Shown here: positions 18,098 through 35,222 of the stretch, one piece after another | Layout of the letters: every line of letters starts with the position of its first letter | How positions within the stretch are numbered: position 1 is the first letter of the stretch | Virus record (IMG/VR): IMGVR_UViG_3300024518_002029 | Span: 1 to 35,857 of that record | Source of the DNA: a virus | DNA: 35,857 bases | Direction: 5' to 3' (one strand) | The notes under the pieces: generated by a model | The model's database searches: none | Seen by the model: only the letters and a program-made list of their open reading frames with translations | What the model was told of the DNA's origin: nothing | Translations under genes and position numbers: made by a program

Positions 18098-18130
18098 ATC
18101 ACAATGATACGGGGCGGGAATAGTGGATAC

Positions 18131-18145
18131 GTTGAAAATTTACAC
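18131..18145 (-). promoter_or_regulatory. Late promoter motif, copy A
   Basis: The minus strand reads GTGTAAATTTTCAAC, matching the motif at 34853, 24496 and 21051 apart from one inserted A and one missing C. It is 33 nt from the start codon at 18097. A GGGC/GCCC hairpin with an A/T loop (18146-18162) precedes it but lacks a proper U-run. Confidence 0.6.
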
Positions 18146-18161
18146 GGGCAATAAAAAAGCC

Positions 18162-21017
18162 CTAACTCATATTAATCTTCTCCATTCTCCTAACAGGCCC
18201 CGTTTCGTCAATGCGCAGGATTTGCTTTTCATTCAGCTTTAAGAAGTGAACGGAAGCCTTTTGCGCCTTGCTTGCGGGCGCCTTTACTTCGTTGTCAATC
18301 TTGATGACCGGGGTGCCTAGAGCGCTGTTGTAGAGCGGTTCATTCCCTACAATGCCCAATATGTCAGCCATGCCGCCTAATTCGCCGCCTTGGATAGCAT
18401 CAAACAGCGGGGCAAACTTAGCGTTATGCTTGCGGCTGAATACCCGCTCCCCGCCTTCCATCTCTACGGCGTACCTGTTGCCGTTCTTATTGTAGTACCC
18501 GGGTATTCCTCCGCCCTCATGTGAAGGCCCAACTAACATACCTTCAACACTTGCTGTACCTTCCCGAAGCACGGGGGCGGACGCGAAAGACGCGGCGTTG
18601 GCCTTAGCGCGTGATATGGTGGAGAATAACAGGCTCAAGGCACCAATACCGATGACAAGGCCTACTAAGCCCTTAGAGGCTTCTGATGCAATCAGTTTTG
18701 CCGCCGCCGTTGTAAGGCTCGCCGCCTGCTGTACGCTTTCAATAGCTAGCTGTTCGTTGGCCGCTTTCTTCTGGATGGCAAGACGCTTGTTAATGTTGTC
18801 CTGCTCAATCCGTTCCTGTTCAGCTAATGCGGCTTCGTAGGTGGCGACGTTGTTTGCATAACCGGCCGCTTGATCGGCTTGTTCCTGCTCTAACAGGCTT
18901 TGTAGTTCCTCCTGCCGTTCTTGCGCCGCCTCAATCTGCTCATCTATCCGGCTAAGTTCGGCCTCCCGTAAGGAATCAACGCCCGCTGTGATGTTCTCGA
19001 TGGCAGAACCTAACACACCAACGATTTCTGCTAGGTCTTCGTCATCTAATTTGAAAGCGTCCTTGATCTTGCCTATCAGTCTTTCAATAGGGTCAAGGCG
19101 AACGTTCTCTAAGTCGTCGATCTGTTGCTGGATAAGCTCACCCTGCAAGCCTAATAGGGTTAGTTCGGCAGCACTCGCACCGGCTTCTTCTAAGATGACC
19201 AAACGCTGCGCAATGCCGTCTTTAGCAATGTTCAGCTTTGCCAATTCTTTGGCTTGGTCAAGGTTCAATTCCTTATTGCCCGATTCCCGTAACAAATCAA
19301 CACGGGCGTTATCAATCGCCTCCTGGTCTGTCAGCGTTTTGAGCCTTTCCGTTTTTATGCGTTCGTTATTAGCAGATAGTACTGCAACGTCTTCCGCTTC
19401 TAATTTGGCAATCTCTACGTCTATTACTAAGGTATCGCCGCCATCAGCCGCAACCACTTCCCGTAGCTCCAACAAAGACCGCTTTTCTGCCTCCACCCGT
19501 TCCCGCGCTTGGAACTCTTCAAGATTCAGCCGTGCGTCACCGCTTACGCTTAACAGGTCAATAAAGGCCAGTTCCTCTGCGAGTGATGCGTCGATTACTT
19601 TCTTTTGTTCAGCAAGACGGAAGGCAGCTATCTCTTTGTCTGCCGCTTCATTAGCCCGGATGCGTAACAATGCAAAGTCTTCCTCCGCGTCAAACTCAAC
19701 CTTTGCGGCTTTGGCTTTCTCACGGGTGACTTCTTCTAACTTGTCTATCTGCTCATTAGCAATCTGCCGGTTAAGGTTAATTTGTTCCTCGCCGCTTAAT
19801 TCCTCACTAGCCCGTAGCGCGTCACGTAGTTGTAATTGGGTGGCCGCAAACTCCTGTTCAGCCTTTAGTCTTTCGGCTGCGTACTTTAGGTAAGCTTGTC
19901 GCGCCTGTTCGTCAATCGTGTTTATCCGGTTGTTCAACGTCGTTTGCGTCTCCAATGATGCGGCTTGCGACTCTTGCAAATCTTTGTATAGGTCTACCAG
20001 TTCCTCAACGTCCGCGTCTACACTTAGGGCGTCACCTGCAACGTTCCGCAAATCCTCAAAGGAAAGGGTAGCATTGTCTAGCCCTTTTATAATATCATCA
20101 ACGTCTACATCAATTGCTAACTTGTTAGACAGTTGCGCTCTAAGGTTAGCTGCTGACTTTTCAATAAACTTGTTTTCAACTTCAAACGCTTTTCGGGCTG
20201 CTGCCTGACGTTCGGCGTTCGACTTGGTAACGTCCTCGCTAATCAAGCCCTGTTCCTTAATGATTTGGTTAGCCCTTGCCCGCTCCGCTGTCAGTAGCGT
20301 TTGTTCCCGGCGCAGTTCCCTTGTCGCTTGTGCTACCTCGTAAGCCCTTGCTGCTTCCTCTTTTAACTCCCCCACCAGCCCGCGCGTTGCGTCGGCATAA
20401 CTGTTAACCGCCCCGATAACATCCCCCGTAAACAACTGGTAGATGGCGGTACCAACCAACGCCGCCCGGTCTGCAAACACATCAAAAACAGCGGTAGCAA
20501 CTGCAAGCGCGTCCGATACCCCGTCAATAACCTTTTGTGAACGGCTCATTGCGGCTATTAGTACGGCGATAATGCCTAAAATAAGCCCGATACTAAGTTG
20601 AAACGCAATGGCGGCAGTACGGGCCGTGAAAAAGCCTTTAGACGCTGCTTTACCTGCCTTGCCAGCACCGGACCCGAAGGAAGTAAAACTTTTGACCCCC
20701 CCGCTCAACAGGTCGCCTATCTCAGTTAGGGATTTACCCGCAATGCTGATTTCATCGCCAAATTTACGGGCTACTTTCCCGCTCTGACTTGTAGCGCGTT
20801 GCCATGCTGACGTTTTACTCCTGTTGTTGTCCAGTTCCTTCCCTGCTTTCTTTACTGCGCCCTCGTAGGACTTTAGGCCCGATGTCGCGTCGTCTAACGC
20901 ATTATCGGCGCTAGATTGGAGGTCTTTGTTTGCTTTCGCTAAGTTCCCCACAAGGTCGGCCGTATCGCTAACCTCCTTGTTATCCACCTCGTAGCGAATA
21001 CGCTGTACTATATCCAT
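18162..21017 (-). CDS. Tail tape measure protein
   Basis: The longest gene here, 951 residues. Residues 1-125 include helical segments (DTADLVGNLAKANKDLQSSA). A hydrophobic segment is at about 136-157 (FQLSIGLILGIIAVLIAAMS). Then comes a very long coiled coil (about 200-760) rich in Ala, Glu, Lys and Leu, a second hydrophobic segment near 785-805 (LVGLVIGIGALSLLFSTISR), and a C-terminal globular region with a GGIPGYYNKNGNRYAVEMEG motif. This is the layout of tape measures, which set tail length. It follows the chaperone and its frameshift extension, the standard position. It is the only gene of its block: a terminator and the promoter motif sit just upstream, and a second promoter motif follows. 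It implies a long non-contractile tail (siphovirus), as no sheath gene is seen. Confidence 0.92.
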   Translation of the reverse strand: MDIVQRIRYEVDNKEVSDTADLVGNLAKANKDLQSSADNALDDATSGLKSYEGAVKKAGKELDNNRSKTSAWQRATSQSGKVARKFGDEISIAGKSLTEIGDLLSGGVKSFTSFGSGAGKAGKAASKGFFTARTAAIAFQLSIGLILGIIAVLIAAMSRSQKVIDGVSDALAVATAVFDVFADRAALVGTAIYQLFTGDVIGAVNSYADATRGLVGELKEEAARAYEVAQATRELRREQTLLTAERARANQIIKEQGLISEDVTKSNAERQAAARKAFEVENKFIEKSAANLRAQLSNKLAIDVDVDDIIKGLDNATLSFEDLRNVAGDALSVDADVEELVDLYKDLQESQAASLETQTTLNNRINTIDEQARQAYLKYAAERLKAEQEFAATQLQLRDALRASEELSGEEQINLNRQIANEQIDKLEEVTREKAKAAKVEFDAEEDFALLRIRANEAADKEIAAFRLAEQKKVIDASLAEELAFIDLLSVSGDARLNLEEFQARERVEAEKRSLLELREVVAADGGDTLVIDVEIAKLEAEDVAVLSANNERIKTERLKTLTDQEAIDNARVDLLRESGNKELNLDQAKELAKLNIAKDGIAQRLVILEEAGASAAELTLLGLQGELIQQQIDDLENVRLDPIERLIGKIKDAFKLDDEDLAEIVGVLGSAIENITAGVDSLREAELSRIDEQIEAAQERQEELQSLLEQEQADQAAGYANNVATYEAALAEQERIEQDNINKRLAIQKKAANEQLAIESVQQAASLTTAAAKLIASEASKGLVGLVIGIGALSLLFSTISRAKANAASFASAPVLREGTASVEGMLVGPSHEGGGIPGYYNKNGNRYAVEMEGGERVFSRKHNAKFAPLFDAIQGGELGGMADILGIVGNEPLYNSALGTPVIKIDNEVKAPASKAQKASVHFLKLNEKQILRIDETGPVRRMEKINMS

Positions 21018-21049
21018 CCTTCAAAGGACGGTCGGCGGGTGGGGTTATT

Positions 21050-21067
21050 TGTTGGAATAATAAACAC
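21050..21067 (-). promoter_or_regulatory. Late promoter motif, copy B (before tape measure)
   Basis: The minus strand reads GTGTTTATTATTCCAACA, the most divergent copy of the motif. CCAAC ends 33 nt before the tape measure ATG, and it follows the terminator at 21069-21097 directly. Confidence 0.6.
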
Positions 21068-21068
21068 G

Positions 21069-21097
21069 AAAAAAGCCCCACCGAATTAGGGCGGGGC
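21069..21097 (-). terminator. Intrinsic terminator after tail chaperone
   Basis: On the minus strand a GCCCC...GGGGC stem (21075-21097, extended inside by CC/GG with bulges) is followed by six U. It separates the chaperone block from the tape measure block, which restarts from its own promoter motif. Confidence 0.8.
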
Positions 21098-21135
21098 GAA
21101 AAATCACACATAACTATGAATAACACTATGAAACA

Positions 21136-21438
21136 CTATTTCTTTGCCTTCTGCTTTTCGTACCTCCGCTCTGCTTCCTCTTGTGTATCAAAGAAATCCC
21201 AAACGGGAAGGGCGCGGGCTGTTTGCTCTGTTAGGTTGGTGTAAGACGTTATCATTTCAACGGCCCTCAATACGTCTGTATTCATGTCCGCGAACTGGTC
21301 TACTTCTTCCCACCCGTTAGGACCGTAAGTAACCCGGTAGCGGCTTGTGACTGGCTTCTTTGTTCTTCCTTCGTGAGCTTTTCGTACTCTGCGCTGTAGA
21401 CGGATGAATAGTCCTTCAACCGCCCCAGCGCCAACGCG
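21136..21438 (-). CDS. Putative -1 frameshift extension of tail assembly chaperone (GT-like)
   Basis: In the -1 frame relative to the chaperone, the reading frame is open from the T_TTT_TTC heptamer at 21438-21444 to the stop at 21136. It encodes a 100-residue stretch that includes VTYGPNGWEEVDQFADMNTD and ends YEKQKAKK. A TGA closes that frame immediately upstream of the heptamer. Siphoviruses commonly make a short and a frameshifted chaperone upstream of the tape measure (lambda gpG/gpGT), and this is the expected place. The shift site could also be further down (for example GAA_AAG at 21378-21384). Without a shift, an ATG at 21285 would give a separate 49-residue protein. If shifted, the fusion is 275 residues. 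Confidence 0.65.
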   Translation of the reverse strand, partial: RVGAGAVEGLFIRLQRRVRKAHEGRTKKPVTSRYRVTYGPNGWEEVDQFADMNTDVLRAVEMITSYTNLTEQTARALPVWDFFDTQEEAERRYEKQKAKK

Positions 21439-21962
21439 AAAAAATCAAACACGTTGAAGTTCTCAGTAGCCCAATCTTCCATCTTCCGTTGCGCGTCTGA
21501 ATGGGAATAGGCTGCTGTGTTTTCCCCCTCGGCAACAATAAAGATGGTGCATATCTGTACCGACTGAATAAAGCGGTCATTGTCCATCTTGGAAACGTTA
21601 CGCTTGAAGTTGTTCACCATGTCGGCGTAACCCAGCTTAACCGCGCCCTCTCCGGTCATCGTCATTAGCTTGGCTCCCTCGTTATGCCAGTAGTTGTACA
21701 TATCAAGGAATGAGTTAAAGCCGTGTTGGGCCGGGATAATCATTTTCTGAAGTTCGGTGTAACGGACTATCCCGATACCGTCCTCCGGGTTCAGTACGGT
21801 GTACCTATTGCCGTTAGCAACGAAGGTAGGCGCAATGCTACCGTTTGACATTCGGGGCAAGTCCTTGACACCTTCCGCCCTGGTGCTTACCTCCACGACT
21901 TCCGCCTTGGGAAACTTCTTTAGTATTTGTTCGGCCGTCGGGCCGTTTACGAATAGGCTCAT
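21300..21962 (-). CDS. Tail assembly chaperone (short form, gpG-like)
   Basis: A 220-residue, helical, soluble protein lying two positions upstream of the tape measure; the only thing between them is its own out-of-frame extension and a terminator. There is a KFPKAEVVEVSTRAEGVKDL segment near the N-terminus and a helical C-terminal half (FDFFALALGRLKDYSSVYSA) ending in LLTVLTGGKK. No sequence signature is diagnostic, so the call rests on position, size and the frameshift arrangement. Its start overlaps the previous stop by 4 nt. Confidence 0.7.
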   Translation of the reverse strand: MSLFVNGPTAEQILKKFPKAEVVEVSTRAEGVKDLPRMSNGSIAPTFVANGNRYTVLNPEDGIGIVRYTELQKMIIPAQHGFNSFLDMYNYWHNEGAKLMTMTGEGAVKLGYADMVNNFKRNVSKMDNDRFIQSVQICTIFIVAEGENTAAYSHSDAQRKMEDWATENFNVFDFFALALGRLKDYSSVYSAEYEKLTKEEQRSQSQAATGLLTVLTGGKK

Positions 21963-22255
21963 TTGGCGATGTTTAGTTTATAGGTGTAGCCCTTGTTAAA
22001 GTGTGCTTGGTGGGCCTCGTTGAATTGATCGTAAGACATTTCAATTACCCGCGTTCGGCCGTTGCTTAGACAGATACACGTTACCGATTCGCCCGTTGTC
22101 AGGTCTTCGGAAAAATCGACCACAGCTTCAAGGTCCACCTTATACCGTCCGGTCAGTTTGGTTGGGGTAATGTCGTTGCCGGTCAACCGAGCAACGTCTA
22201 CGTCATCCTGTGTGACCTGCTGAACTATTCGTGTCGTTTCAATAAATCTAGTCAT
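21959..22255 (-). CDS. Small hypothetical tail-region protein
   Basis: A 98-residue, soluble, mixed alpha/beta protein (TRFIETTRIVQQVTQDDVDV, then VDLEAVVDFSEDLTTGESVT). It lies in a tight run of genes with 4-nt overlaps or short gaps between the tail completion gene and the chaperone, so it is probably needed for tail formation. No family is recognised. Confidence 0.6.
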   Translation of the reverse strand: MTRFIETTRIVQQVTQDDVDVARLTGNDITPTKLTGRYKVDLEAVVDFSEDLTTGESVTCICLSNGRTRVIEMSYDQFNEAHQAHFNKGYTYKLNIAK

Positions 22256-22268
22256 GGGTTGTTTTTGG

Positions 22269-22556
22269 TTAATAGGCAGGGATGAACGGTTCTTTTTTAT
22301 CGGGCCATTCTAAATAGGTTTCGCTTGATTCCACATTGCGGGTTTTCTTTTCCGGTTTGTCCCTACGTAGAAATGTCATTTTGCCATCAACGGTAGCGTA
22401 AACGTCGCGCCAATGGCTTTCACGAATCCGCTCCTTTGGAGGGTTGGACATTAGCATTGTAGTGGTTTCCTTTACGTGGTAAACGTGAAGCTCTGCCCCT
22501 GCTTTTTGGACGCGGGTAATCGTTCCGTCTCTTAGTCCTTGCTTCTTTCTTCTCAT
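22269..22556 (-). CDS. Small basic hypothetical protein
   Basis: A 95-residue protein, rich in Lys and Arg (MRRKKQGLRDGTITRVQKAG, then FLRRDKPEKKTRNV). It overlaps the next upstream gene by 4 nt. It may be nucleic-acid binding because of its charge, but this is a guess. No family is recognised. Confidence 0.55.
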   Translation of the reverse strand: MRRKKQGLRDGTITRVQKAGAELHVYHVKETTTMLMSNPPKERIRESHWRDVYATVDGKMTFLRRDKPEKKTRNVESSETYLEWPDKKEPFIPAY

Positions 22557-22894
22557 TCTTCCTCACTTACGCCTACTAAAAAAGACATCATTGCCCGCCC
22601 TTCCTTGTCGGCGCTGTTGTCGAACTGCTCCATTACGGCCCGGAATTTTTCGTGAGGAACCAGCAATAGGGTTGATGTATAGTTAATCATGTGGACCCAT
22701 GTCGCCGGATGCCCGTTGTAAGCCCCCTTGTTCGTCACTACTGCCTCGTGGTACTCTATCACATGGCTAAGGTCAACCGACGCCTTGAAGTCTCTGAACT
22801 CGCCCTCGTAGTAGGTTCCCATTTTTTCGGCCTCGGCCGCTTCTTTGGCGTTCGTTAGTTCACGTATAGTTCGGCCGTGGTACCATTTATTCAT
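22553..22894 (-). CDS. Small hypothetical protein
   Basis: A 113-residue protein with a helical N-terminus (NKWYHGRTIRELTNAKEAAE) and an acidic C-terminus. No signal or membrane segment. It shares a 4-nt overlap with the next gene, and starts 2 nt after the membrane protein gene ends, so it is co-translated with the tail genes. Function unknown. Confidence 0.55.
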   Translation of the reverse strand: MNKWYHGRTIRELTNAKEAAEAEKMGTYYEGEFRDFKASVDLSHVIEYHEAVVTNKGAYNGHPATWVHMINYTSTLLLVPHEKFRAVMEQFDNSADKEGRAMMSFLVGVSEEE

Positions 22895-22896
22895 AG

Positions 22897-23199
22897 CTAA
22901 AAAACGTATCTTCTGACAACCCCCGCCGTAAGCATAGCGTAAACGGGGATGGGCAGAACGGTAAAAACGGGTTGGCCCAAATAGGCCAGTATAAAAGCGG
23001 ACAAGCAGCCCAGCATACCGCTAAGGCAAATCTCGCATGTGGTGTACTTGTAGACGAACCAAGTAAATAGGTTTTCGTCTTTCATTTCCCTTGTGAACTC
23101 TCCCCATTTTGACAGTATATGGTCATTGTGAATTAGTTCGCGGGTAATGATGGTGGCAAGCGTACCGATAAAGGCCGCTAATTCGTAGGCGTAGGCCAT
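22897..23199 (-). CDS. Membrane protein with CEIC motif
   Basis: A 100-residue protein from ATG 23199 (MAYAYELAAFIGTLATIITR), chosen over an upstream in-frame ATG at 23277 that would run through the neighbouring membrane gene. Hydrophobic stretches lie near 6-20 and 62-90 (LGCLSAFILAYLGQPVFTVL). A TTCEICLSG motif at about 51-59 resembles a small-protein family seen in Bacteroidota phages and plasmids with a conserved CxxC before a membrane segment. No function is known to me. It overlaps the upstream gene by 22 nt. Confidence 0.6.
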   Translation of the reverse strand: MAYAYELAAFIGTLATIITRELIHNDHILSKWGEFTREMKDENLFTWFVYKYTTCEICLSGMLGCLSAFILAYLGQPVFTVLPIPVYAMLTAGVVRRYVF

Positions 23200-23369
23200 T
23201 TGGGGTAGGTTAGTGCTGCGATTAGAAAGGGCAAACCGGCTATTGCCATCTTCCAGCCCCAAGGGTAGACTATCCATGCCAGCATTCCAACGGGGAATAA
23301 CAGCACTAGGGCAGCGCCAAAGGAAACGGCTAAGATTAAGAGTCCACGTAGTAAAATCTTTCTTACCAT
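23178..23369 (-). CDS. Small two-segment membrane protein
   Basis: A 63-residue protein from the ATG at 23369, which overlaps the upstream stop as ATGGTAA; an ATG at 23381 would add four residues. Two hydrophobic segments, LLILAVSFGAALVLLFPVGM and a WKMAIAGLPFLIAALTYP segment, make a helical hairpin. It is next to another membrane protein in the tail gene run, which is an odd place for lysis proteins. Function unknown. Confidence 0.55.
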   Translation of the reverse strand: MVRKILLRGLLILAVSFGAALVLLFPVGMLAWIVYPWGWKMAIAGLPFLIAALTYPKWPTPTN

Positions 23370-24031
23370 TCCGTTACGCATTCAAGTTCAGCCCCCAACG
23401 CCAGCGCATTAGCACTAACGCATCGACGGGGCACAATCATAGTTACTTCAAAGTCAATCGCCCCGAAGTCGTAGGGGTAAAGGACGTATTTTCCGACCGT
23501 CTCAGCGTCGTAACTGTACTTGCTGAAAATTGAAACGTCGCGCGGGTTTTGCCTTGCGCTGTCGAACCTGACTTGTGTACCCGTAAACGCTCCGGAGGCA
23601 ACGTTGAAGCCGTCCCTTAGCGCCTCTATCATTGCCCAAGCAAACTGATCGCCAATCGTCCTGTAAGCGTCGTTACTGGCCCCCATTTTGGGCAGGTTCA
23701 GCCAGTAGACCATACGTGCGGAACCCCGCAAATAAACATAGCTGCGGGAAAGTTTAAGGGAAGACGGCGGGGTAGCTTCCGCCATGCCCGCAAGTTCTTC
23801 CCAATAGACTAGATTTTTATAATGATCGGCAGGTACTAAGTCCTCGTACTTCCCCTTATTGTAGCAGGTGTCAGCGTTTACGCCTTCACGAACCGGGAAA
23901 ACCTTTCGGGTTAATCTCCCTTGGTCAACCTCTTGGGTAAACGTAACGGGAATACAAAGACCGCCGTAACGGTCTACAACGCCCAAGCCGGTCAGGGCTG
24001 TTGAGGCGGCGCTTATGGCTGTTGCAATCAA
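23363..24031 (-). CDS. Hypothetical tail/neck protein
   Basis: A 222-residue protein. It overlaps the tail completion gene by 4 nt at its start. There is an N-terminal helix (ATAISAASTALTGLGVVDRY), then a mixed alpha/beta body (VYLRGSARMVYWLNLPKMGA, YVLYPYDFGAIDFEVTMIVP). Position after the gp10-like gene suggests a tail terminator or neck component. No signature is recognised. Confidence 0.6.
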   Translation of the reverse strand: MIATAISAASTALTGLGVVDRYGGLCIPVTFTQEVDQGRLTRKVFPVREGVNADTCYNKGKYEDLVPADHYKNLVYWEELAGMAEATPPSSLKLSRSYVYLRGSARMVYWLNLPKMGASNDAYRTIGDQFAWAMIEALRDGFNVASGAFTGTQVRFDSARQNPRDVSIFSKYSYDAETVGKYVLYPYDFGAIDFEVTMIVPRRCVSANALALGAELECVTEW

Positions 24032-24462
24032 AATGGTAATCCTTTGTTGAGTCGTTCAATAAATACCGCCGTGACTAACTGTAATTCGTCGGTCGTGTTC
24101 GTTAGGATGTTGCCGTCTTTCTTAAACGCTCCGTTTAGTTTGGCTTGGTTGTCCTTATCCCTTGCTTTGATTTCTACCGTGACCACGGCGGGCGACCTGT
24201 CCACAACTTCCGGCTGGATGCTCCGGAATAATTCACCGGTCCGCGTGTAGTCCTTGTGTTGTGTCTGGTAGCCGTTTTTAGACCGGTCGCGGGCGTAGGA
24301 ATCGGTATAGTCCGTGAAGTCTCCGCCGACGCCTTCGCCGCGTTCCTGAATCGTTAGCTGGCGAAGGGCGATGGCCTCATGCGAAGCAACTAACGCGGCG
24401 GCTTCCAGATCGGGAGCGGCGACGAAGTCCCTAAGGTCTTGTATATGTGATTTTAACGACAC
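24028..24462 (-). CDS. Tail completion / neck protein (HK97 gp10-like by position)
   Basis: A 144-residue protein starting with GTG at 24462 (MSLKSHIQDL). The pattern of a helix, a short loop (TDYTDSYARDRSKNGYQTQH), a DYTRTGELFRSI segment and beta strands (VTVEIKARDKDNQAKLNGAF) resembles gp10-type neck proteins that carry an R-T-G-x-L motif. The GTG start is supported by the promoter motif ending exactly 33 nt upstream, as in two other blocks. It is first in its block. Confidence 0.65.
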   Translation of the reverse strand: MSLKSHIQDLRDFVAAPDLEAAALVASHEAIALRQLTIQERGEGVGGDFTDYTDSYARDRSKNGYQTQHKDYTRTGELFRSIQPEVVDRSPAVVTVEIKARDKDNQAKLNGAFKKDGNILTNTTDELQLVTAVFIERLNKGLPF

Positions 24463-24495
24463 GCCACAAAGATGGGTAGTCGGGTTGTTCGTTCT

Positions 24496-24511
24496 GTTGG
24501 AAAATTACACA
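24496..24511 (-). promoter_or_regulatory. Late promoter motif, copy C
   Basis: The minus strand reads TGTGTAATTTTCCAAC; with its flank (CAGAACG) it is identical over 22 nt to the copy at 34847-34868. It lies directly after a terminator and ends 33 nt before the GTG at 24462. The TAATTTTC core is close to the Bacteroidota -7 box TAnnTTTG, but no clear -33 TTTG is placed upstream. Confidence 0.7.
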
Positions 24512-24545
24512 AAGGAAAAGCCCCGCACCGGTTAGGGCGCGGGGC
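24511..24545 (-). terminator. Intrinsic terminator after 24597-24803
   Basis: On the minus strand GCCCCGC (24539-24545) pairs with GCGGGGC (24520-24526), with a further short inner pairing, followed by a U-rich run (TTTTCCTTT). It ends the one-gene unit 24597-24803 directly before the next promoter motif. Confidence 0.8.
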
Positions 24546-24596
24546 TGAGGTTCTTTGGCGGTGGACAAGGCCGCAGGTTAGGTCCGGGGTGGTGGG

Positions 24597-24803
24597 TTAG
24601 TCGTTCAGGTATTCGTTTATATTTTTTACATAGTCGTCAATCCATTGCTTTCTTACTTCGTTTACACCGTAAAGGTTAACTACAACGCTTTCCGTTCCTG
24701 ACCCAATAGTGTGGCCCTGCAAGCTGTATCGGCTCCAATTGATTGCAAATTTTGTTGCCATGTCTCTGGTTGGGAATGTTATCGTTGCGGTTAAAGTATC
24801 CAT
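24597..24803 (-). CDS. Small single-gene unit protein (68 aa)
   Basis: A 68-residue protein beginning MDTLTATITFPTRDMATKFA, then NWSRYSLQGHTIGSG and ending WIDDYVKNINEYLND. The form is a small alpha/beta domain, similar to small proteins I recall from Bacteroidota phages and plasmids, of unknown function. It has its own host-type promoter with a palindrome in the spacer, a strong terminator upstream for the previous block, and its own terminator. It is therefore transcribed separately from the late virion genes and probably controlled by a repressor. An anti-repressor or moron (lysogenic-state) gene are possible roles. Confidence 0.65.
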   Translation of the reverse strand: MDTLTATITFPTRDMATKFAINWSRYSLQGHTIGSGTESVVVNLYGVNEVRKQWIDDYVKNINEYLND

Positions 24804-24855
24804 TTTGTTAGCTGTTTATTGTGTGAAGTAAAAAGCGTTATTGCTTTTCGTTACA

Positions 24856-24902
24856 CAAATATAGGTAACATTATGTTACTATGCAAGTATATCACAAATA
24901 TA
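24856..24902 (-). promoter_or_regulatory. Bacteroidota-type promoter with operator palindrome
   Basis: The minus strand shows TTG (24884-24886), a 20-nt spacer and TATATTTG (24856-24863), fitting the TTG / TAnnTTTG promoter form of Bacteroidota. A 15-nt palindrome GTAACATTATGTTAC (24865-24879) fills most of the spacer, the classical place for a repressor. A second TATATTTGTG lies at 24893-24902, so a tandem promoter is possible. It drives the gene at 24597-24803. Confidence 0.7.
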
Positions 24903-24926
24903 GACTAAAATACTTCAAGCGGACGC

Positions 24927-24962
24927 AAAAAAAAACCCGCTACCAATTAAGGTGGCGGGTTT
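24927..24962 (-). terminator. Strong terminator ending the terminase-portal block
   Basis: On the minus strand a 12-bp stem (24951-24962 with 24933-24944, one T-G pair) and a 6-nt TTAATT loop are followed by about nine U. It ends transcription from the baseplate-type gene 25012-26076 and insulates the next small gene. Confidence 0.88.
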
Positions 24963-25011
24963 TCCGTGATGGCCTTGTTTCGTGTGTCACTAACCCGTTG
25001 CCCGGCTTCGC

Positions 25012-26076
25012 CTAACTAAACGAACGGCGATCATTAAAAGCGTCGGCATGGTAGTAATTTCTTACCCATGTAAGCGTGGCCGAACTAAACACGCTATCGG
25101 CCTGCTTAGAATACTGAATTTGCAGGTCATTAACCGGGTATTCAATTCCCGTTAGTAACCGCGTGGCCGTGATGGTTGCCGCCTTTGACGCTGCCTTAAA
25201 CGGTCCTAAAAGGTCATCGGGCATATCTATTGCAAGGGCTGTTACTTGGTCCTGTGTATTGGCATAGTTAAGGAACCGCTCACCTACCCCGTTCGTCCAA
25301 TAGTCGTCATCCGTCGGTGCGGTAGGCTCCGAAAAGGTCAGGTTCAGGTAAAGTGATGCCGTGAACGGGTTTTGATAGGGGATGCCATCAAATGAGCCTT
25401 CATCGGTGAAGTCGAACCGCCATAGGTCTGCTAATTCATCGTTGGGCCTGCTTGATTGGTCAATTAGGGTCAGGGTGCCGCCTCCTGCCGTACTTGCCGC
25501 ATAAGTGGAAACGAACGTACCACAACGCCCCTTAACCGTTCTAACGACAACCACCTCTGTTCCTGAAGCCGTCGCTGCTGTTCCTGTGAATGGTACTCTG
25601 TCCGTGCCGTCTATCAACACGTTCCCAGCGTTCTCTAATCCTGCAACGTTGTCCGCGAAGGTGAACGCGTAATCTACCCCGCCAACTACGATAGCCGTTG
25701 CTACCGAGGCAATGCCCGCCCGCTGGTCATCACACGCCGAATGCAGGTACATCCAGGCAGAGTAATAATTGTTACTGATTCCCGTCAAGATAACAGAATG
25801 GAGTCCGCAATACTCCGCGCCTATGTCGCCACCGTTGTAAACGTAGAAAGTATTGCCGTCTGCGTCATCGAGGGCCGTTAGCAATGATACGTCAAGGGTA
25901 TAAACCTGCCCGTCATCAGAGGCAAGTTGAAACCGGGTAACGCGATCATCCTGAATGGAGAACGGCATAAGAAAGCGACCGTGCGCAGATAGGCCAAAGC
26001 CGTCATGATCTGCCCGTACACGTTCGCGCGGGTCTTTGTATAGCGGTAGTAGGCTATTGGTGGCGGAACTTCTCAT
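25012..26076 (-). CDS. Large tail/baseplate-type protein
   Basis: A 354-residue, beta-rich protein with a short basic start (SLLPLYKDPRERVRADHDGF) and many Thr, Ser, Asp and Gly. Segments such as FTASLYLNLTFSEPTAPTDD and LLTGIEYPVNDLQIQYSKQA resemble baseplate or fibre-attachment proteins. It overlaps the preceding gene by 4 nt. The texture fits a tail-tip structural protein, but no family can be named. It is the last gene of the terminase-portal block. Confidence 0.6.
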   Translation of the reverse strand: MRSSATNSLLPLYKDPRERVRADHDGFGLSAHGRFLMPFSIQDDRVTRFQLASDDGQVYTLDVSLLTALDDADGNTFYVYNGGDIGAEYCGLHSVILTGISNNYYSAWMYLHSACDDQRAGIASVATAIVVGGVDYAFTFADNVAGLENAGNVLIDGTDRVPFTGTAATASGTEVVVVRTVKGRCGTFVSTYAASTAGGGTLTLIDQSSRPNDELADLWRFDFTDEGSFDGIPYQNPFTASLYLNLTFSEPTAPTDDDYWTNGVGERFLNYANTQDQVTALAIDMPDDLLGPFKAASKAATITATRLLTGIEYPVNDLQIQYSKQADSVFSSATLTWVRNYYHADAFNDRRSFS

Positions 26077-27731: not shown

Positions 27732-27732
27732 T

Positions 27733-28056
27733 TTATACTGGTTTAATTAGTCCGTGCTTAATTAATTTTTTTAGCGCGTTGCGGTAGTTCAACGCTGAAA
27801 CATACTTAGCATCCGGGTTTACCTTGACCTTGCGGTGACGGCTGCTAACCCTCATCCCTCCGGCCATACCTTTGGCGACGGCTAACGTATCGTCGTCCTC
27901 ATAGTCTTCCGGTTGAAGTTCCAGTAATTGACCGCTTAGGAACTCGAACACCTTATGCCCCCGCTTGGGCCGCATCATGCCCACCCATTTTTCTTCTTTC
28001 TTTACGGCAATTTCGACGGTCTGACCTTCCCGGCGTTGTTCTTTCGCTTCCAGCAT
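27733..28056 (-). CDS. Small basic hypothetical protein
   Basis: A 107-residue basic protein (LEAKEQRREGQTVEIAVKKE, then RVSSRHRKVKVNPDAKYVSA). The ATG shares its first base with the stop of the preceding small gene (TAATG). It is co-translated with the MuF and tail-tip genes and may be a virion assembly factor. No family is recognised. Confidence 0.6.
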   Translation of the reverse strand: MLEAKEQRREGQTVEIAVKKEEKWVGMMRPKRGHKVFEFLSGQLLELQPEDYEDDDTLAVAKGMAGGMRVSSRHRKVKVNPDAKYVSALNYRNALKKLIKHGLIKPV

Positions 28057-28259
28057 TATTTGTAAGTATTTATGTCTTGGCCCCTCCGTCCGGCTAAAGT
28101 TTCCGCAAGCGTTTCAGTTGATGGATTAAGCCGGCCCCATGTTCTGCCAATAATGGCGTCGCCTAATGTCTTTCGTTCCACCTTCCCAATCTTAGAAAGA
28201 ATTTCCTTCCTTGTGTAACCGCTAACAGGTCGTGGCCTTCTGCCGTTATTAACGTAAAT
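28056..28259 (-). CDS. Small basic protein without a standard start codon
   Basis: A frame between the MuF-like gene and the next small gene reads IYVNNGRRPRPVSGYTRKEI, then KVERKTLGDAIIGRTWGRLN and ends GQDINTYK. It stops as TAATG on the next gene's ATG, the kind of tight junction seen throughout this operon, and the amino-acid texture is clearly coding. No ATG, GTG or TTG precedes it in frame: a TAA closes the frame 18 nt upstream of the ATT at 28259. The start is therefore ATT (as in infC) or lies later (GTG near residue 27), or a frameshift from the MuF gene is used. Function unknown; a basic, possibly nucleic-acid-binding protein. Confidence 0.5.
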   Translation of the reverse strand: MYVNNGRRPRPVSGYTRKEILSKIGKVERKTLGDAIIGRTWGRLNPSTETLAETLAGRRGQDINTYK

Positions 28260-28284
28260 ATACTGATAATTAGTAGTTTAGCTA

Positions 28285-29178
28285 TCATTTTTGGCAAGGG
28301 ATTAAAGCGTTAATTTCAATTCCTCGCTGCTTTGCTAGTGTCTCAGCCAACTCCTTGGTAATCCACCTGAACACCCCCCGGCATTGCCAACCGCCCATAG
28401 CTACGGTGGTGGGTGTAGAAGTGCGTTTCCCAGCCCATGTAAGCCCATCCCAGCGTTCTATTTCCTCTTTGGTGTAAATGCCGTTGATTCGCTGACAGCA
28501 AAACTTACGGGTGGTAGGTATCGGCCTGCCGTGTGAATAAATGGCATGGGTTAGGTCTAATTCCTCTGCATACACTAGCCCGGTAGTACGGCTAACGTCT
28601 GCAAACAAATTGCCGCTTAGGTTGGCAAACTCCTTTTCCACCAACCCCAAACCCTTACGCCCGATAAAGTCCTGCCGGAACGTCTTGCGGAAGCCCGCAA
28701 TAGTAGATCGGCCCGCAATAGCAGAACTAACCCGACTTAATACCTGACGTTTCAGGTTGTCGCCCGTCAAATTATCCAAGTACGTACCCGATACTATTTG
28801 CCGCGTCTGATTATCGTAACCTAACGAAAGTAATACCTGCCGTATCGCCGTGTCCCTTATGGACGGTCCTACTTCATTGCGGGTTTGGTAGTAGTCGCCA
28901 TTGAGCGATACCAACCGGCGAACATTGCGAACCAACCAAGGAAGCAGTTGAGCCAACAGCCCGTTTTGCGATACCGTCACGGCGCTGGCTACATCGCCCT
29001 GTAAGGCTGTATTCGCCGCGTTACGTGCGATGCGACCGCCCTCCGTTTCTAATCCATCCAGTATGCCCGCTATGCGCTCAAACAAGGAAGTTTGGGCGCG
29101 TTTCACCCACCCCCTAAGCGTTTCGCCTAATTGAGCAATGAGTTTGTTTATCGCTGATTGTATTTCTCGTCTGTTCAT
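28285..29178 (-). CDS. MuF-like minor head protein (SPP1 gp7/Mu gpF family)
   Basis: A 297-residue protein. The C-terminal third carries the family signature: TTRKFC (222-227), then GGWQCRGVFRWI (262-273), corresponding to the TRxxC...GGxxCRxxxxW pattern of the MuF head domain. The N-terminal half is helical (LGETLRGWVKRAQTSLFERI). It follows the portal gene by one shared base, the standard location, where it takes part in head assembly or as an ejected component. The family is confident. Confidence 0.85.
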   Translation of the reverse strand: MNRREIQSAINKLIAQLGETLRGWVKRAQTSLFERIAGILDGLETEGGRIARNAANTALQGDVASAVTVSQNGLLAQLLPWLVRNVRRLVSLNGDYYQTRNEVGPSIRDTAIRQVLLSLGYDNQTRQIVSGTYLDNLTGDNLKRQVLSRVSSAIAGRSTIAGFRKTFRQDFIGRKGLGLVEKEFANLSGNLFADVSRTTGLVYAEELDLTHAIYSHGRPIPTTRKFCCQRINGIYTKEEIERWDGLTWAGKRTSTPTTVAMGGWQCRGVFRWITKELAETLAKQRGIEINALIPCQK

Positions 29179-31244
29179 TAGGCGTTAGCAGTTGGCCCGT
29201 TCTCGTCCTCTAACACAAAAGTAGTTCCTGCCCCGGCTAATATGTCTTGCGCCTTTTTCCGGTCATAGCCATATGCCGATTCCATTATCTCAATGGCAGA
29301 GGCAGCCGGCAATTCCTTAGCGGCGACACTACTTACAAGCCCGATGAGGGACGTAACTTGAGCGCCGTTAAGCGCGACAAATACGCCGCCGACTACGGGC
29401 GCTTCCGGTGTTGATTCAACGCCTTGGGGTGCTTGTTCTCCTTCCTCAAAATCTGGTTCGTTAATCGGGTCCGGTTCTTCAAGATTTACCATTGCGGCAA
29501 AGTCGTCTTTCATTGGCTTGACCTTCTCTGCTATGCTCATGGCTATTTTATCAATCTCCTGTTCCTGGCGCTCGAACGTCATTAGCCCGAAATTGGGGAA
29601 ACGAACGTCAACGAGGGTAGCGATACGGGGCCAGTTCTCAAACTTTACCCGGTCAAGGTCCGACGGGTCACGTTGTTGCATTATCTGGAAAACCCGATCA
29701 TAAGCGCGGCCTCGTTCGGGGTTGTGCATTTGTAGCGCACGGTGGCGCTCAACTACCGCCGGGTCATCGCTGTATTGCTTGCCTAAGATTTCGCAAAAGA
29801 TAGCCTCGGCTAATGCCATTAGCCCCTTGTCTATTGCTTCGTTGTATTGCGTTGTCAGAACGTCCAACGGGGTCAGCCCTAAGTTCTTCGGGTAGCTGTG
29901 ATTGTAGCTAACTGACTGCTCCATATACCCCGCAATAGACCTAACACCGATTTCCGCAAGATGGGACGTTTGCAGCGCGAAGGTGTAAACCTCGTTGTTG
30001 ACGTTTTCCCAATTTAGCAGTTCAGCCGTCGCCGTGGTCGGTGCGACTGGCTTTTGTTCGATGTTGGTATTGAACATCGTTAGCGCCACCTGAATTTGGT
30101 CAGCCATCAAGTCATCGCTAATCCATTGCGTCGACGCTAGTGGCGCTTCGGCGTAAGAGTAGAAAGCATCGGCGGGAATTATTTCGTCCTTCATCGCCCC
30201 CGCTGATACCTTATACCGGACATTATCAAGTTCGGAGGCGTGAAGCATGGACCCGGTGCCGGAGCAAGACGGGCATTGGTGCGAACGGTTATCACCTAGG
30301 TACCCGTTGCCGTTGCAGTCGCCTAGGTCGTCGTCCTCATACGCGCAATCAAAGTCAAGACCGAACAACTTGGGGTAAACGTGCTTCCATTTACAAACGT
30401 CCTTTAGTGAACCGCCCCGAACAATCCGCTTTAATACGTGCCGGGCGGAGTAATACGGCGGGGCCTTAACGGTTGAATCTGACAGCACCCCGCAACGGTA
30501 AGCGCCGAACTTTGAACCGGGGAAGAAGTCGATGCCGTTTTGGTGGTTCTTGACTGTAAAGAACCGTTCCTTGCGATCCGTTCCGACAAACGTGTACCCG
30601 TCAGGTTGCGGGCTTAGTTCCTCCCGATAGACCACCGACCCACCGACGATGTAGGCCGTGTACGTTTCAAGTCGTACCATATGCCCCTTCGCGTTTTCTT
30701 CCACCCGCGAACGCAGGGAAATGGCGAACTCCGGCACCCCGTACTTATACCCGTAATTAATCGCCTCGTGTGAAGTGATTTCGAGCGGATATGGCTTAAC
30801 GTCAGTCAATAAACCCTCCTCGCTAACGATGGACTCAAATTCGGTTACAAACCATGCGTTCGGGTCGTGAAACTCGTAAAACAATTGCTGGCCCTGCAAA
30901 TAAGCATATAGGGAGCGATTGCCGAAGAAGTTGTAAACCTTGTCCTTAACTGCCTGAACTACTTCTTTGTCGGGGCTTTCGTACTTTTCCTTGATTCCAT
31001 CCACGCGGAAGGTCTTGCGGTAGATTGTTTCGGCGGGGCTTAGCACCTCCGGCGTTCGGGGAACGGTCACGGCGACCCGCTGGTCTATGTTCTCCCGACT
31101 TTCGCCCTTGCGAATCTCCTTCAACATTTCCTCCTGACCTTCGCCCGTCATCATGGCTCGTGACCAATCGGCCATCTCGCACATAAAATCGTAGTACTTG
31201 TGTCGTTCTCCGGCAATAGCCGCAATTATCTTTTCGTCTATCAT
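29178..31244 (-). CDS. Phage portal protein with cysteine-rich (zinc-binding) insertion
   Basis: A 688-residue protein from the ATG at 31244, which shares a base with the terminase stop (TAATG); an in-frame upstream ATG at 31295 is less likely. It is the dodecameric channel through which DNA is packaged. The body is helical and rich in charged residues, as expected. A cysteine cluster at C300, C310, C324 and C327 (CPSCSGTG) looks like a zinc knuckle inserted in the portal body, a known variant in Bacteroidota phages as I recall. A C-terminal acidic segment (about 580-600) precedes a short helical domain. Confidence 0.85.
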   Translation of the reverse strand: MIDEKIIAAIAGERHKYYDFMCEMADWSRAMMTGEGQEEMLKEIRKGESRENIDQRVAVTVPRTPEVLSPAETIYRKTFRVDGIKEKYESPDKEVVQAVKDKVYNFFGNRSLYAYLQGQQLFYEFHDPNAWFVTEFESIVSEEGLLTDVKPYPLEITSHEAINYGYKYGVPEFAISLRSRVEENAKGHMVRLETYTAYIVGGSVVYREELSPQPDGYTFVGTDRKERFFTVKNHQNGIDFFPGSKFGAYRCGVLSDSTVKAPPYYSARHVLKRIVRGGSLKDVCKWKHVYPKLFGLDFDCAYEDDDLGDCNGNGYLGDNRSHQCPSCSGTGSMLHASELDNVRYKVSAGAMKDEIIPADAFYSYAEAPLASTQWISDDLMADQIQVALTMFNTNIEQKPVAPTTATAELLNWENVNNEVYTFALQTSHLAEIGVRSIAGYMEQSVSYNHSYPKNLGLTPLDVLTTQYNEAIDKGLMALAEAIFCEILGKQYSDDPAVVERHRALQMHNPERGRAYDRVFQIMQQRDPSDLDRVKFENWPRIATLVDVRFPNFGLMTFERQEQEIDKIAMSIAEKVKPMKDDFAAMVNLEEPDPINEPDFEEGEQAPQGVESTPEAPVVGGVFVALNGAQVTSLIGLVSSVAAKELPAASAIEIMESAYGYDRKKAQDILAGAGTTFVLEDENGPTANA

Positions 31245-32506
31245 TACTTGAATGGTTTTAAGCGGGCAAAGCGGGTCTGGCGATACCGGCAGCAATCAAA
31301 AAAGTGATTGTTAGCGTCTATCGGGTCATTCAGCCAATTACCGTTAGCGTGTTGCTTGAACTTGTAGGTCTGTTGTTCTCTTATCGCTCCGTGGCTCCGC
31401 TTGGTTACGAATATCCGGTAGCCTCTTAGCTGGTTAATCCCTGACCGAACCGACCCGGGGCGCTTGACGGCCTTGCGGACGTTGTACCCTGCACGACGCA
31501 AGGCGTTGATCGTTGACGGGTGTGAACTATCCGCGATTATCTCGAACCTTTTACTTATATCTAAATCTTGGAAGCGTTTTATCATGTCCGCCTCGTTAAG
31601 CCCCGTCTCGTATATCAATTGGTCGCAATACAACTCATGTACCACCACCTGCTTGCCGTCTATTTCTTCCTTAATCTGGCGTTCCGCAAACTGGTACAGG
31701 CTGGTCGGGTCGTTGGTGAAGCCGAAGTCAAGGCCACCGCTTAACCCCTTGAGGTTCTCCGGCCATTCCTCGACTATCGTAATCGATGGGATAACAAGCC
31801 CCTCCGTAACGCCATATTCGCCCTCACCATACACCCGCCACAATGCTGGGTTAGTATGTTGTAGATTCTCAATTTCGGCTATCTGTGTAGCCTTTAAGGT
31901 GTGGTTATCCCTGTAGGTAGTCACCACTATATCAACGTCGCCTTTATCGTGCTGTCTCTTGTCCTCTAGTTCGGTCTTAATCCATACGTAAGCATCTGAC
32001 GGGTTAAAGTCCATTAGGACCGGCCCTGTGCAGCGCATAAGCAATTGAAAGAACTCTTTTGCGTAGTTGAGTTCGTTAGCCTCGTTGCAGTATAGGATAT
32101 TTGATTTGCGCCCCCTTAACTTCTGTTCATCGTCGGCACCGATAAACTCAACCATTCGCCCGTTAAAGCTAAAGGCCCGGTTCGTCTTATTGTAGGCGGG
32201 AACGCGTCCGGTAGCGGAGGCAAAAGCAAATACGATTTGCTCAAAGTCCTTTAGAACCGTTCCCTTTAGTGTTGCGGCGTGCTTCCTGACCACTAATGCC
32301 GTCCCCTTGTTTATTACTTCGTCTTCGCCTCCCTGTCGCCTTAGAATGCCCATAAACAGCCAACGGCAAAGGAGAATAAGGATAGCGAACGTTTTACCCG
32401 ACCGCGTCCCCCCCCGCATTACAACGATACGATTAGTCGTTGCATCCAATAGCCGCAACGTGTCCGTCTTTGGCATTTTAGTGATGGGGGCTGTTTTAAC
32501 CGTCAT
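31244..32506 (-). CDS. terL: Terminase large subunit (ATPase/nuclease)
   Basis: A 420-residue DNA-packaging motor. Walker A is GGTRSGKT (32-39) and Walker B is ILYCNEANEL (137-146, catalytic E142). The RNase H-like nuclease domain has LDFGFTNDPTSL (259-270, D260), IADSSHPSTI (324-333, D326) and a late acidic residue in DANNHFFDCCRY near 400-410. It is of the Terminase_3 type. It overlaps the portal start and the small subunit end by a few bases, so the three are translated together. Confidence 0.95.
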   Translation of the reverse strand: MTVKTAPITKMPKTDTLRLLDATTNRIVVMRGGTRSGKTFAILILLCRWLFMGILRRQGGEDEVINKGTALVVRKHAATLKGTVLKDFEQIVFAFASATGRVPAYNKTNRAFSFNGRMVEFIGADDEQKLRGRKSNILYCNEANELNYAKEFFQLLMRCTGPVLMDFNPSDAYVWIKTELEDKRQHDKGDVDIVVTTYRDNHTLKATQIAEIENLQHTNPALWRVYGEGEYGVTEGLVIPSITIVEEWPENLKGLSGGLDFGFTNDPTSLYQFAERQIKEEIDGKQVVVHELYCDQLIYETGLNEADMIKRFQDLDISKRFEIIADSSHPSTINALRRAGYNVRKAVKRPGSVRSGINQLRGYRIFVTKRSHGAIREQQTYKFKQHANGNWLNDPIDANNHFFDCCRYRQTRFARLKPFK

Positions 32507-32919
32507 TCGTCAAGGCCAAATAATTGGCGTAAGGCTTCGGGGTCTTGTACCGTTACTGTTTGTTCCGTTCTACTACCGTTTAATCGGTGGGCTTCCTCGT
32601 CAGTGCCAATCAACTTATAGAGGGCTAACTGTTTGGTTGCGTTGTCACTTTCGTACCACTTTTTGCGCATACCCGCCTTAAGGTCAACCTTGTTTTTGTT
32701 CAGGGCCGCTTTTATAGTGTCCGTTTTGTTCAAACCTAGATCATGGAACGTTGTACGGCAGCAAGGTAAATAGCTTACCACTTCATCAATAAACACTAGC
32801 TTTCGCTTAGTGATTTCTTCCAACGCTTGCAATTCCAATTCTTTAGCGTCGTACTTTACCGGACCCTTGGTACTTGCTCGTTTTGCTGGCTTCTTAGCCG
32901 GTGCTTTCTTTGCTGCCAT
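32503..32919 (-). CDS. Terminase small subunit
   Basis: A 138-residue protein. The N-terminus is a Lys/Ala/Pro-rich, unstructured tail (AAKKAPAKKPAKRASTKGPV). A helix-turn-helix-like part (YLPCCRTTFHDLGLNKTDTI) follows, and the WYESDNATKQLALYKLIGTD segment is recurrent in small subunits of Bacteroidota phages. It recognises packaging sites in the phage DNA. Position directly before the large subunit, with a 4-nt overlap, supports the call. Confidence 0.75.
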   Translation of the reverse strand: MAAKKAPAKKPAKRASTKGPVKYDAKELELQALEEITKRKLVFIDEVVSYLPCCRTTFHDLGLNKTDTIKAALNKNKVDLKAGMRKKWYESDNATKQLALYKLIGTDEEAHRLNGSRTEQTVTVQDPEALRQLFGLDE

Positions 32920-32923
32920 AGGG

Positions 32924-33757
32924 TTAGGGTTTTAAATTGAGCGCATGGGTCGGACCTGCCCCGCCTTCCTTCCCGCTGGATGCGGGCTGCTTCGTGCTTA
33001 CTTTAGCCTCATGCGCCTGTTGCCTTTCGGCAATGGTTATCTTTTCGCCTTTGTACATTCCCGCCCCGGCTTCGTCTATTGCGGAGTAGGGAAGTTCTGG
33101 ACAACTTAGCGTTAGCCCTTTTTCTAGTATTTTGATGTAGCGTAGCTGGAAGCCAGACATAAGGACGCCCCCGTAGTCTTTGGCTAGTTTCGTCATTGGA
33201 ATATTCCTAGTCCCGTACTTTTTCAGTACCATCTTTCCTAGAATGCTTCCCGGTGCTGCGTGAATCACTATCCTGTGAACCACTCCCCCGCCAAGCGCTT
33301 CAGGCAAAAGCCAAAGGTCTGAAAGACTCTCGCGCACAGCGGTAAGGGAGAAGCCCGAAGCCCGGTAAATAGTCCCGTCTCCGCATTGCGTCCCATCGCT
33401 AAACGAAAGAATCCATTTAATGTGCTTTGCGTTCTTTTTTAACAGCCGAAAGGCAATCGCCATACATCGACTTTCGGAGTTGCGGGGTAACAGTTCGCTA
33501 AACGCCATCCGGTTTAGTTCCATCATTTCGTTCCATAAGCAGGGGTTGCCGCAGCTGTCTACCACTAATGGCAATACCTTGCGCTTATCCATCGGCGGGC
33601 CAAAAGACATAACGCCTCCTAGCGTACCGTCTAAGAAGCACCCAAAGTGCAATTGGCTGTTCCCGCCAACTTTCCCGCTATAATGAAACTTCTTAACAAA
33701 GGCATTTGCAGCCTTTGAAGGGATAACCTTTACCTGTATGTCCTTTGCGCGGCCCAC
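32924..33757 (-). CDS. Mom-like DNA modification protein (GNAT-type fold)
   Basis: A 277-residue protein. The core (about 7-160) matches the phage Mom family by eye: FHYSG at 24-28, HFGCFLDGTLGGVMSFG, ELNRMAF and FSDGTQCGDGTIYRASGF (about 118-135). Mu Mom converts adenines in phage DNA to a carbamoylmethyl form and so protects it from restriction. A C-terminal basic tail (from about 245) is extra. It lies between a ParB-like gene and the small terminase, so it is expressed with packaging genes; this fits modification of DNA just before encapsidation. Related GNAT acyltransferases of other function cannot be excluded. Confidence 0.7.
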   Translation of the reverse strand: MGRAKDIQVKVIPSKAANAFVKKFHYSGKVGGNSQLHFGCFLDGTLGGVMSFGPPMDKRKVLPLVVDSCGNPCLWNEMMELNRMAFSELLPRNSESRCMAIAFRLLKKNAKHIKWILSFSDGTQCGDGTIYRASGFSLTAVRESLSDLWLLPEALGGGVVHRIVIHAAPGSILGKMVLKKYGTRNIPMTKLAKDYGGVLMSGFQLRYIKILEKGLTLSCPELPYSAIDEAGAGMYKGEKITIAERQQAHEAKVSTKQPASSGKEGGAGPTHALNLKP

Positions 33758-34356
33758 TATCTTTGCCCGTTTGAAGTCACCACCAAAAGGTACAGGGCGT
33801 TTCCATTCCCATTTTCATTGCCGAACGTTTCCGCATATTTGAACTCATCCGTTTTCTTCATTTCTGCCATCGCCTCTTTTATCTTTTCGGCCTGTTCATC
33901 GGCAAGGCTGAAGGTCATCTGCTGGAACGGTTCGCGGTCGCCATCCGGTAGATTAAATTCATCCGTTAATTCATCTTCATCGAGTCCCGACCATTCCGGT
34001 ATTTCTACGTCCCAATCTTCCAAATCTCCTTCCCCCCAATCTTCCGTTAAAAATGGTGCATCCCATTCCGAAGTATCACTAGTAGCATTATCCGCCAACG
34101 CCAATTCTTTCCGCTTAGGGTCATCAAGTTTTAAATCGGTGCGCTTGACCACAACCAGTTCCGTTCCGTCCGTTTCAACGATTCGGGTAGGGATGCCTAA
34201 CGCCTCAGCTTGTTCCATTACGCCGTTCCCGGCAATAAGGTAGTCTTCGCTGTCAATTAAGACGCTACGGCCTGCCCCTAGCTTTTGGAGCGACTTGTTT
34301 ATCAGTTCCTTGTTTCGGTCTGAATGTTTACGGTAATTCTTTGGGTCTTGTTTCAT
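33757..34356 (-). CDS. ParB/Srx-like domain protein beside the Mom-like gene
   Basis: A 199-residue protein from ATG 34356, chosen because it overlaps the previous stop as ATGA; an ATG at 34383 would add nine residues. Residues 5-65 resemble the N-terminal ParB/Srx fold (NYRKHSDRNKELINKSLQKL, then DYLIAGNGVMEQAEALGIPT, an AGNG-type loop in the usual AGHxR place). The rest is acidic and unstructured (SGLDEDELTDEFNLPDGDRE). Phage ParB-like genes frequently accompany DNA-modification enzymes; here it overlaps the Mom-like gene by one base, which points to a joint role. Its biochemical activity is unknown. Confidence 0.7.
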   Translation of the reverse strand: MKQDPKNYRKHSDRNKELINKSLQKLGAGRSVLIDSEDYLIAGNGVMEQAEALGIPTRIVETDGTELVVVKRTDLKLDDPKRKELALADNATSDTSEWDAPFLTEDWGEGDLEDWDVEIPEWSGLDEDELTDEFNLPDGDREPFQQMTFSLADEQAEKIKEAMAEMKKTDEFKYAETFGNENGNGNALYLLVVTSNGQR

Positions 34357-34790
34357 GCCGCCATTTGTTCCCGCCCCATACACAAGTCAAGATACACCCG
34401 CCATTCGTCGCTGACTGACTTGGTTTGCATCTGCTCGACAATAGGGTTGAATGATTTCTTAAGAATGTAGTAGTACCTGTCCCTGGTGGTTAGTTTGCCG
34501 TAGTAGGCAACGTCCGCAAAGTTCAGGTTGTACGTTTCGTGTATCTGCCGTAGGGACTTAATCTTACCCGCCCGCAGGGAGCCGATGTAAAAGAAGAATA
34601 GCCCGATCTCCCCTAAGGAGTGGGCGTTAAGTTTCTTAAGGTAGTCAGATAGTCCGCCGTCAGGGAAGTCCTCACGTAAGCACTTGGCTACTTCGGCCCG
34701 ACTCTTAACCCCGGAAAGGCGCAATGCCTCCCGGTAATGGGCTAGGGCGAACTCCCGCAGGGGTAGCTCAATAATTCGTATCCAATTCAT
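34353..34790 (-). CDS. Hypothetical protein at the head of the modification/packaging block
   Basis: A 145-residue protein from ATG 34790 (MNWIRIIELPLREFALAHYR); a GTG at 34811 would add seven residues. Helical, soluble, basic (LRAGKIKSLRQIHETYNLNF). Its stop overlaps the next start (ATGA). It is the first gene after the promoter motif at 34853-34868. Similar arrangements of a small unknown gene before a ParB-like gene are familiar, but I do not know its function. Confidence 0.6.
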   Translation of the reverse strand: MNWIRIIELPLREFALAHYREALRLSGVKSRAEVAKCLREDFPDGGLSDYLKKLNAHSLGEIGLFFFYIGSLRAGKIKSLRQIHETYNLNFADVAYYGKLTTRDRYYYILKKSFNPIVEQMQTKSVSDEWRVYLDLCMGREQMAA

Positions 34791-34852
34791 CCGGTTTGTT
34801 CTAATGCACACTGTAACGCCCCGCTAAGATATAGCCGGTCGTTTCCCGTTCT

Positions 34853-34868
34853 GTTGGAAAATTACACA
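34853..34868 (-). promoter_or_regulatory. Late promoter motif, copy D
   Basis: The minus strand reads TGTGTAATTTTCCAAC; a 22-nt stretch here (34847-34868) is identical to 24490-24511. It ends 41 nt before the GTG 34811 or 62 nt before the ATG 34790. A GGGG/CCCC hairpin overlapping the end of the previous gene (34868-34886) lies just upstream. It should start the ParB-Mom-terminase-portal block. Confidence 0.7.
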
Positions 34869-34873
34869 CGGGG

Positions 34874-35149: not shown

Positions 35150-35164
35150 AAATATTTTAGGCAC

Positions 35165-35195: not shown

Positions 35196-35222
35196 GATTA
35201 GTGAATGTTGTATCGGCGTTCG

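Follow-up and report, generated by a model that had tools for sequence, protein, structure and literature searches.

The minus strand of IMG/VR virus record IMGVR_UViG_3300024518_002029 carries, ahead of four blocks of virion genes, a 15-nt element followed at a constant distance by a box that resembles the -7 element of Bacteroidota promoters. We think it probable, on balance, that a single late-promoter module is repeated here four times and that in it an activator made by the phage would replace the contact that host polymerase ordinarily makes at -33. A larger proposition, which we put forward more tentatively, is that a Bacteroidota phage may re-aim the unusual primary sigma factor of the phylum with its own -33-replacing activator and that three of its four late units may be leaderless, a single module setting both the promoter and the choice of start codon.

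The entire record, linear and 35,857 bases long, was analysed and is referred to here as the window. Almost every gene is on the minus strand, and the functions encoded are those of packaging, head, tail and lysis, with terminase, portal, tape measure, tail fibre and holin recognised among the gene products. The host is very probably a member of the Bacteroidota: the top database matches of the terminase are to Bacteroidota phages, with 34-35% identity to those of Phocaeicola, a 552-aa protein has matches in Bacteroides, Parabacteroides and Croceibacter phages, and the majority of related terminases found in genomes are in Bacteroidota. Within the genome collection the nearest terminase (40%) belongs to a 6.4-kb contig binned as Candidatus Gracilibacteria (JALWQU010000082.1), which is perhaps a wrongly binned phage contig. 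No replication, integration or polymerase gene is recognised in the window and open frames run off both ends of the contig, so the early region is probably absent from it.

The initial annotation had reported four minus-strand copies of the upstream motif, at 34853, 24496, 21051 and 18131, and all are present, two exact and two variant (Table 1). Allowing up to three mismatches, the window holds six matches against 1.36 expected by chance, and no shuffle attained six; the two surplus matches, at 1781 and 2199 on the plus strand, are antisense to a gene and lie outside any promoter context. The 22 identical bases said to be shared by two copies were likewise seen, at 24490-24511. Measured from the end of the motif to the start codon, the distances are 41 (34853), 33 (24496), 33 (21051) and 33 nt (18131), as had been claimed, and three equal distances among four would arise about once in a thousand cases if distances were uniform over 0-60 nt. 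CCAAC had been described as the sequence preceding the start by 33 nt; the spacing stands, but the copy at 18131 ends in TCAAC instead.

The -7 box itself had been placed within the motif, at TAATTTTC, and we discarded that assignment because a better candidate stands at a constant offset downstream of all four copies. Exactly 21 nt past the terminal CAAC each has a Bacteroidota -7-like box (TATCTTAG, CATCTTTG, GTCCTTTG and TATCATTG; consensus TAnnTTTG). These boxes are approximate, with 5/6, 5/6, 4/6 and 5/6 consensus letters at 34853, 24496, 21051 and 18131 respectively and none perfect, that at 21051 being the weakest and lacking the TA. At offset 21 the four sites together match 19 of 24 consensus letters, the runner-up offset matching 11, and a total of 19 was not attained at any of 45 offsets when four positions were drawn at random 20,000 times; this test corrects for the 45 offsets but not for the choice among consensus sequences, the one used being published and fixed beforehand, and was run after the box had been spotted by eye. 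When a weight matrix spanning the motif, the 21-nt spacer and the box was built with each site left out in turn, every omitted site outranked all non-sites on both strands, the weakest again being 21051 (15.3 against 13.1 for the best non-site), and a weight-matrix scan of both strands returns these four module sites only. Since the true -7-like box lies 21 nt downstream in all four cases, the 15-mer occupies the -33 position, and its CAAC falls where the host TTTG would stand with a 21-nt spacer. The earlier statement that a -33 box is missing is borne out by this, the usual TTTG positions holding the CAAC of the common motif at four of four sites.

Table 1. Predicted late promoters A-D, the genes that follow them and the hairpins that precede them
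Feature	Coordinates	Strand	Remarks
Late promoter A (predicted), upstream element GTGTAATTTTCCAAC, about -48 to -34	34853..34867	-	exact copy
Late promoter A (predicted), -7-like box TATCTTAG	34824..34831	-	predicted +1 = 34819, box position from PMC9723704; predicted 5' leader 8 nt (GTG 34811) or 29 nt (ATG 34790)
Late promoter B (predicted), upstream element GTGTAATTTTCCAAC	24496..24510	-	exact copy
Late promoter B (predicted), -7-like box CATCTTTG	24467..24474	-	predicted +1 = 24462, GTG first base
Late promoter C (predicted), upstream element GTTTATTATTCCAAC	21051..21065	-	3 mismatches
Late promoter C (predicted), -7-like box GTCCTTTG	21022..21029	-	predicted +1 = 21017, tape-measure ATG
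Late promoter D (predicted), upstream element GTGTAAATTTTCAAC	18131..18145	-	2 mismatches
Late promoter D (predicted), -7-like box TATCATTG	18102..18109	-	predicted +1 = 18097, ATG of 85-aa gene
First gene after promoter A	34353..34811	-	152 aa, no family
First gene after promoter B	24028..24462	-	GTG start; 37-38% identical to syntenic relatives
Tape-measure gene after promoter C	18162..21017	-
First gene after promoter D	17840..18097	-	85 aa; then tail and lysis genes
Weak hairpin upstream of promoter A	34870..34884	-	z -0.7, no better than shuffles
Intrinsic terminator directly upstream of promoter B	24519..24546	-	fold z -4.9
Intrinsic terminator directly upstream of promoter C	21075..21097	-	fold z -3.4
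Weak hairpin upstream of promoter D	18146..18162	-	z -1.1, no better than shuffles

The position of the box also offers an account of the 33-nt spacing. In Flavobacterium psychrophilum the sigma-A box TAnnTTTG spans -12 to -5 (PMC9723704), and in three of our genes the -7-like box stops 4 nt short of the start codon; transposing the one onto the other makes the first base of the start codon the predicted +1 at 24462, 21017 and 18097 (33 = 21 + 8 + 4). The spacing is probably explained by transcription beginning on the start codon, and the late mRNAs of these three genes are predicted to be leaderless. The gene behind the 34853 copy is not strictly so, its predicted +1 lying 8 or 29 nt before the start. 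Among the genes of the window only those at 18097 and 24462 score 5/6 at -12 to -5; 21017 scores 4/6, equal to two motif-free genes, and none of the 87 genes of two control phages scores 5. The GTG start that had been proposed at 24462 holds up well, since no start codon precedes it in its frame and it fits the N-termini of aligned homologues. In F. psychrophilum 5.5% of the mRNAs whose starts have been mapped are leaderless (PMC9723704), and in B. thetaiotaomicron leaders shorter than 10 nt make up just 3.7% of 5' leaders (PMC7366714). A leaderless-promoter pattern showed no enrichment in 21 host genomes (8 vs 6, our own count), which is expected if leaderless genes are rare.

The mechanism that we favour has two contacts. 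Host RNA polymerase with its primary sigma factor would probably bind the sigma-A-type box at -12 to -5, and the phage-specific element would stand in for the host -33 box, a DNA-binding activator made by the phage and seated on that element giving the contact that normally comes from sigma region 4. The packaging, tail and lysis blocks would thereby be turned on together, with two of the four promoters restarting transcription directly after strong terminators and the three start-codon promoters yielding leaderless mRNAs. The suggestion in the initial annotation that such late promoters need a phage activator or sigma factor is still the best reading, although no such protein was found in the window: the scanned gene products include no sigma factor and no clear activator, and the contig is probably incomplete. 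The only candidate DNA-binding regulator is a 65-aa protein (35223-35420) with weak XRE-type (HTH) matches. Beside it, at 35135-35148, is a perfect palindrome, TTAGACATGTCTAA, unique in the window and set within a likely promoter (box TACCTTTC) of a 72-aa gene (34874-35092); it is a possible operator for the adjoining HTH-like protein.

An activator that substitutes for a sigma contact has a functional analogue in the middle promoters of T4, where a MotA box is combined with the sigma70 -10 element and MotA and AsiA appropriate sigma; in both systems the upstream host box gives way to a phage-specific element, which keeps a fixed distance to a host -10-type box that is itself intact (PMC2988021, PMC7403470). 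In T4 the MotA box measures about 9 bp, with its centre at -30, and is 12 +/- 1 bp away from the -10 (PMC2988021, PMC7403470), whereas the element described here measures 15 bp, has its centre near -41, lies 21 nt from a -7 box of Bacteroidota type and serves virion genes. The likeness is one of function only, and the window yielded no homologue of MotA or AsiA. With the primary-sigma promoters of Bacteroidota (TTTG at -33, TAnnTTTG at -7) the module has in common a -7-like box and an upstream element that ends where the -33 box would, but the 15-mer takes the place of the -33 TTTG and the start codon is predicted to fall at +1, as against median host leaders of 24-32 nt (PMC9723704, PMC7366714). 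Leaderless phage mRNAs of the kind predicted here are found among the middle and late transcripts of the Thermus phage phiYS40 (PMC3594737), which differs in that its host belongs to another phylum and commonly has leaderless genes, whereas Bacteroidota seldom use them. In our literature search no late-promoter class turned up that has been described for a Bacteroidota phage using host polymerase, and for the middle and late genes of crAss001 dependence on host polymerase has only been suggested (PMC8375218).

These could instead be ordinary host-sigma promoters, the AT-rich 15-mer serving as an UP-like or degenerate -33 element for an unmodified host polymerase that needs no phage factor. The boxes do look like the host -7 box, and no -33 element could be recognised in Flavobacterium johnsoniae (PMC7366714), which implies that the -33 box may be dispensable. 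However, an exact 15-mer at two sites, inside 22 common bases, exceeds the specificity that an UP element needs, and 296 Bacteroidota genomes show no enrichment of the module: in them TTCCAAC-N21-TAnnTTTG has about 85 matches against about 80 for the reversed pattern (our own count). The latter is moderate evidence of limited power, since the canonical TTTG pattern used as a positive control was itself enriched only modestly in 21 genomes (about 511 vs 423, our own count), although fourfold in one of them. This moderately supports the view that the 15-mer is not a general part of Bacteroidota promoters in the sampled genomes, and we regard the host-sigma explanation as unlikely, if still the most serious of the alternatives.

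Less probable again is a phage-encoded or host alternative sigma factor that reads both halves and for which the 15-mer would be the upstream box. Such a factor would suit the fixed 21-nt spacing and the presence of both halves together at four of four sites, and a second flavobacterial motif, SM5 (TAnnTTGY), which is close to TAnnTTTG, is thought to belong to an alternative sigma (PMC9723704). Against this, none of the four boxes contains the CGT-type -10 element of ECF promoters, the sigma-54 pattern at -24/-12 is lacking, and no sigma-factor match was obtained among the scanned gene products, although this last point is weak evidence given that the early region seems to be missing. That the motif is simply the U-tract tail of a terminator, or a repeat, with no promoter role is very improbable, because although it is T-rich and two copies lie directly behind strong terminators, two other terminators (near 35150-35200 and 24920-24960) have motif-free T-tracts, and neither CCAAC nor an aligned downstream -7 box is a terminator feature.

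Comparison with other viruses appears to give the module no backing from evolutionary conservation. Scans of viral contigs with the terminase, tape-measure and portal proteins alone recovered no close relatives, nor did a terminase scan of genomes; syntenic relatives were reached by alignment (L277/L039, L279, L281 and others). The module is not present in these, and at the places equivalent to promoters B and C their genes are packed unbroken. Across all viral contigs, two scans with strict patterns returned 33 and 11 matches and did not find the module elsewhere: most of the 33 recur as common conserved sequence of coding appearance, and all of the 11 run antisense to a long open frame, and in none does a gene, however short, stand at the predicted start. 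One candidate that had looked promising (L011) was rejected; it is a lone site in its contig, among genes that we read as archaeal-virus-like.

Returning to the phage itself, the activator-dependent module that we prefer would divide the virion genes into units. Promoter A would head the packaging and head block, in which the 152-aa gene (fold prediction of its product, at pLDDT 47, is too poor for use) is followed by ParB-like, Mom-like, terminase and portal genes down to 25012, and promoter D would head the tail-fibre and lysis block. Promoter B appears to restart transcription after a small self-contained unit and promoter C to do so at the tape measure after a terminator. A hairpin or terminator had been described before every copy of the motif; those before 24496 and 21051 are strong, but those before 34853 and 18131 are indistinguishable from shuffled sequence. 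Four start sites are predicted to the nucleotide, the 15-mer is a defined target for mutation, and the involvement of a phage activator acting on the unusual Bacteroidota sigma can be clearly tested. Leaderless translation becomes directly testable in a phylum that lacks Shine-Dalgarno sequences, and the module is a possible inducible promoter for gut or environmental Bacteroidota.

Several features of the surrounding genes deserve mention in their own right. The minus-strand segment 24519-24903 is a moron-like unit, comprising a 68-aa gene (24597-24803), its own terminator and tandem host-type boxes TATATTTG at 24902 and 24863, and it separates two late genes that adjoin in the syntenic relative L277. 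An ordinary host-type promoter, TTG-N20-TATATTTG at 24863, is therefore not lacking in this phage. The gene before the tape measure (21300-21962, minus strand) seems to extend in the -1 frame to about 21137, and 21137-21962 seems to be the usual frameshifted arrangement of tail-assembly chaperones. Finally, ParB-like and Mom-like DNA-modification genes adjoin the terminase at 32924-34383 (minus strand), and the pair is also found near terminases in L070 and L192, which suggests a travelling modification cassette.
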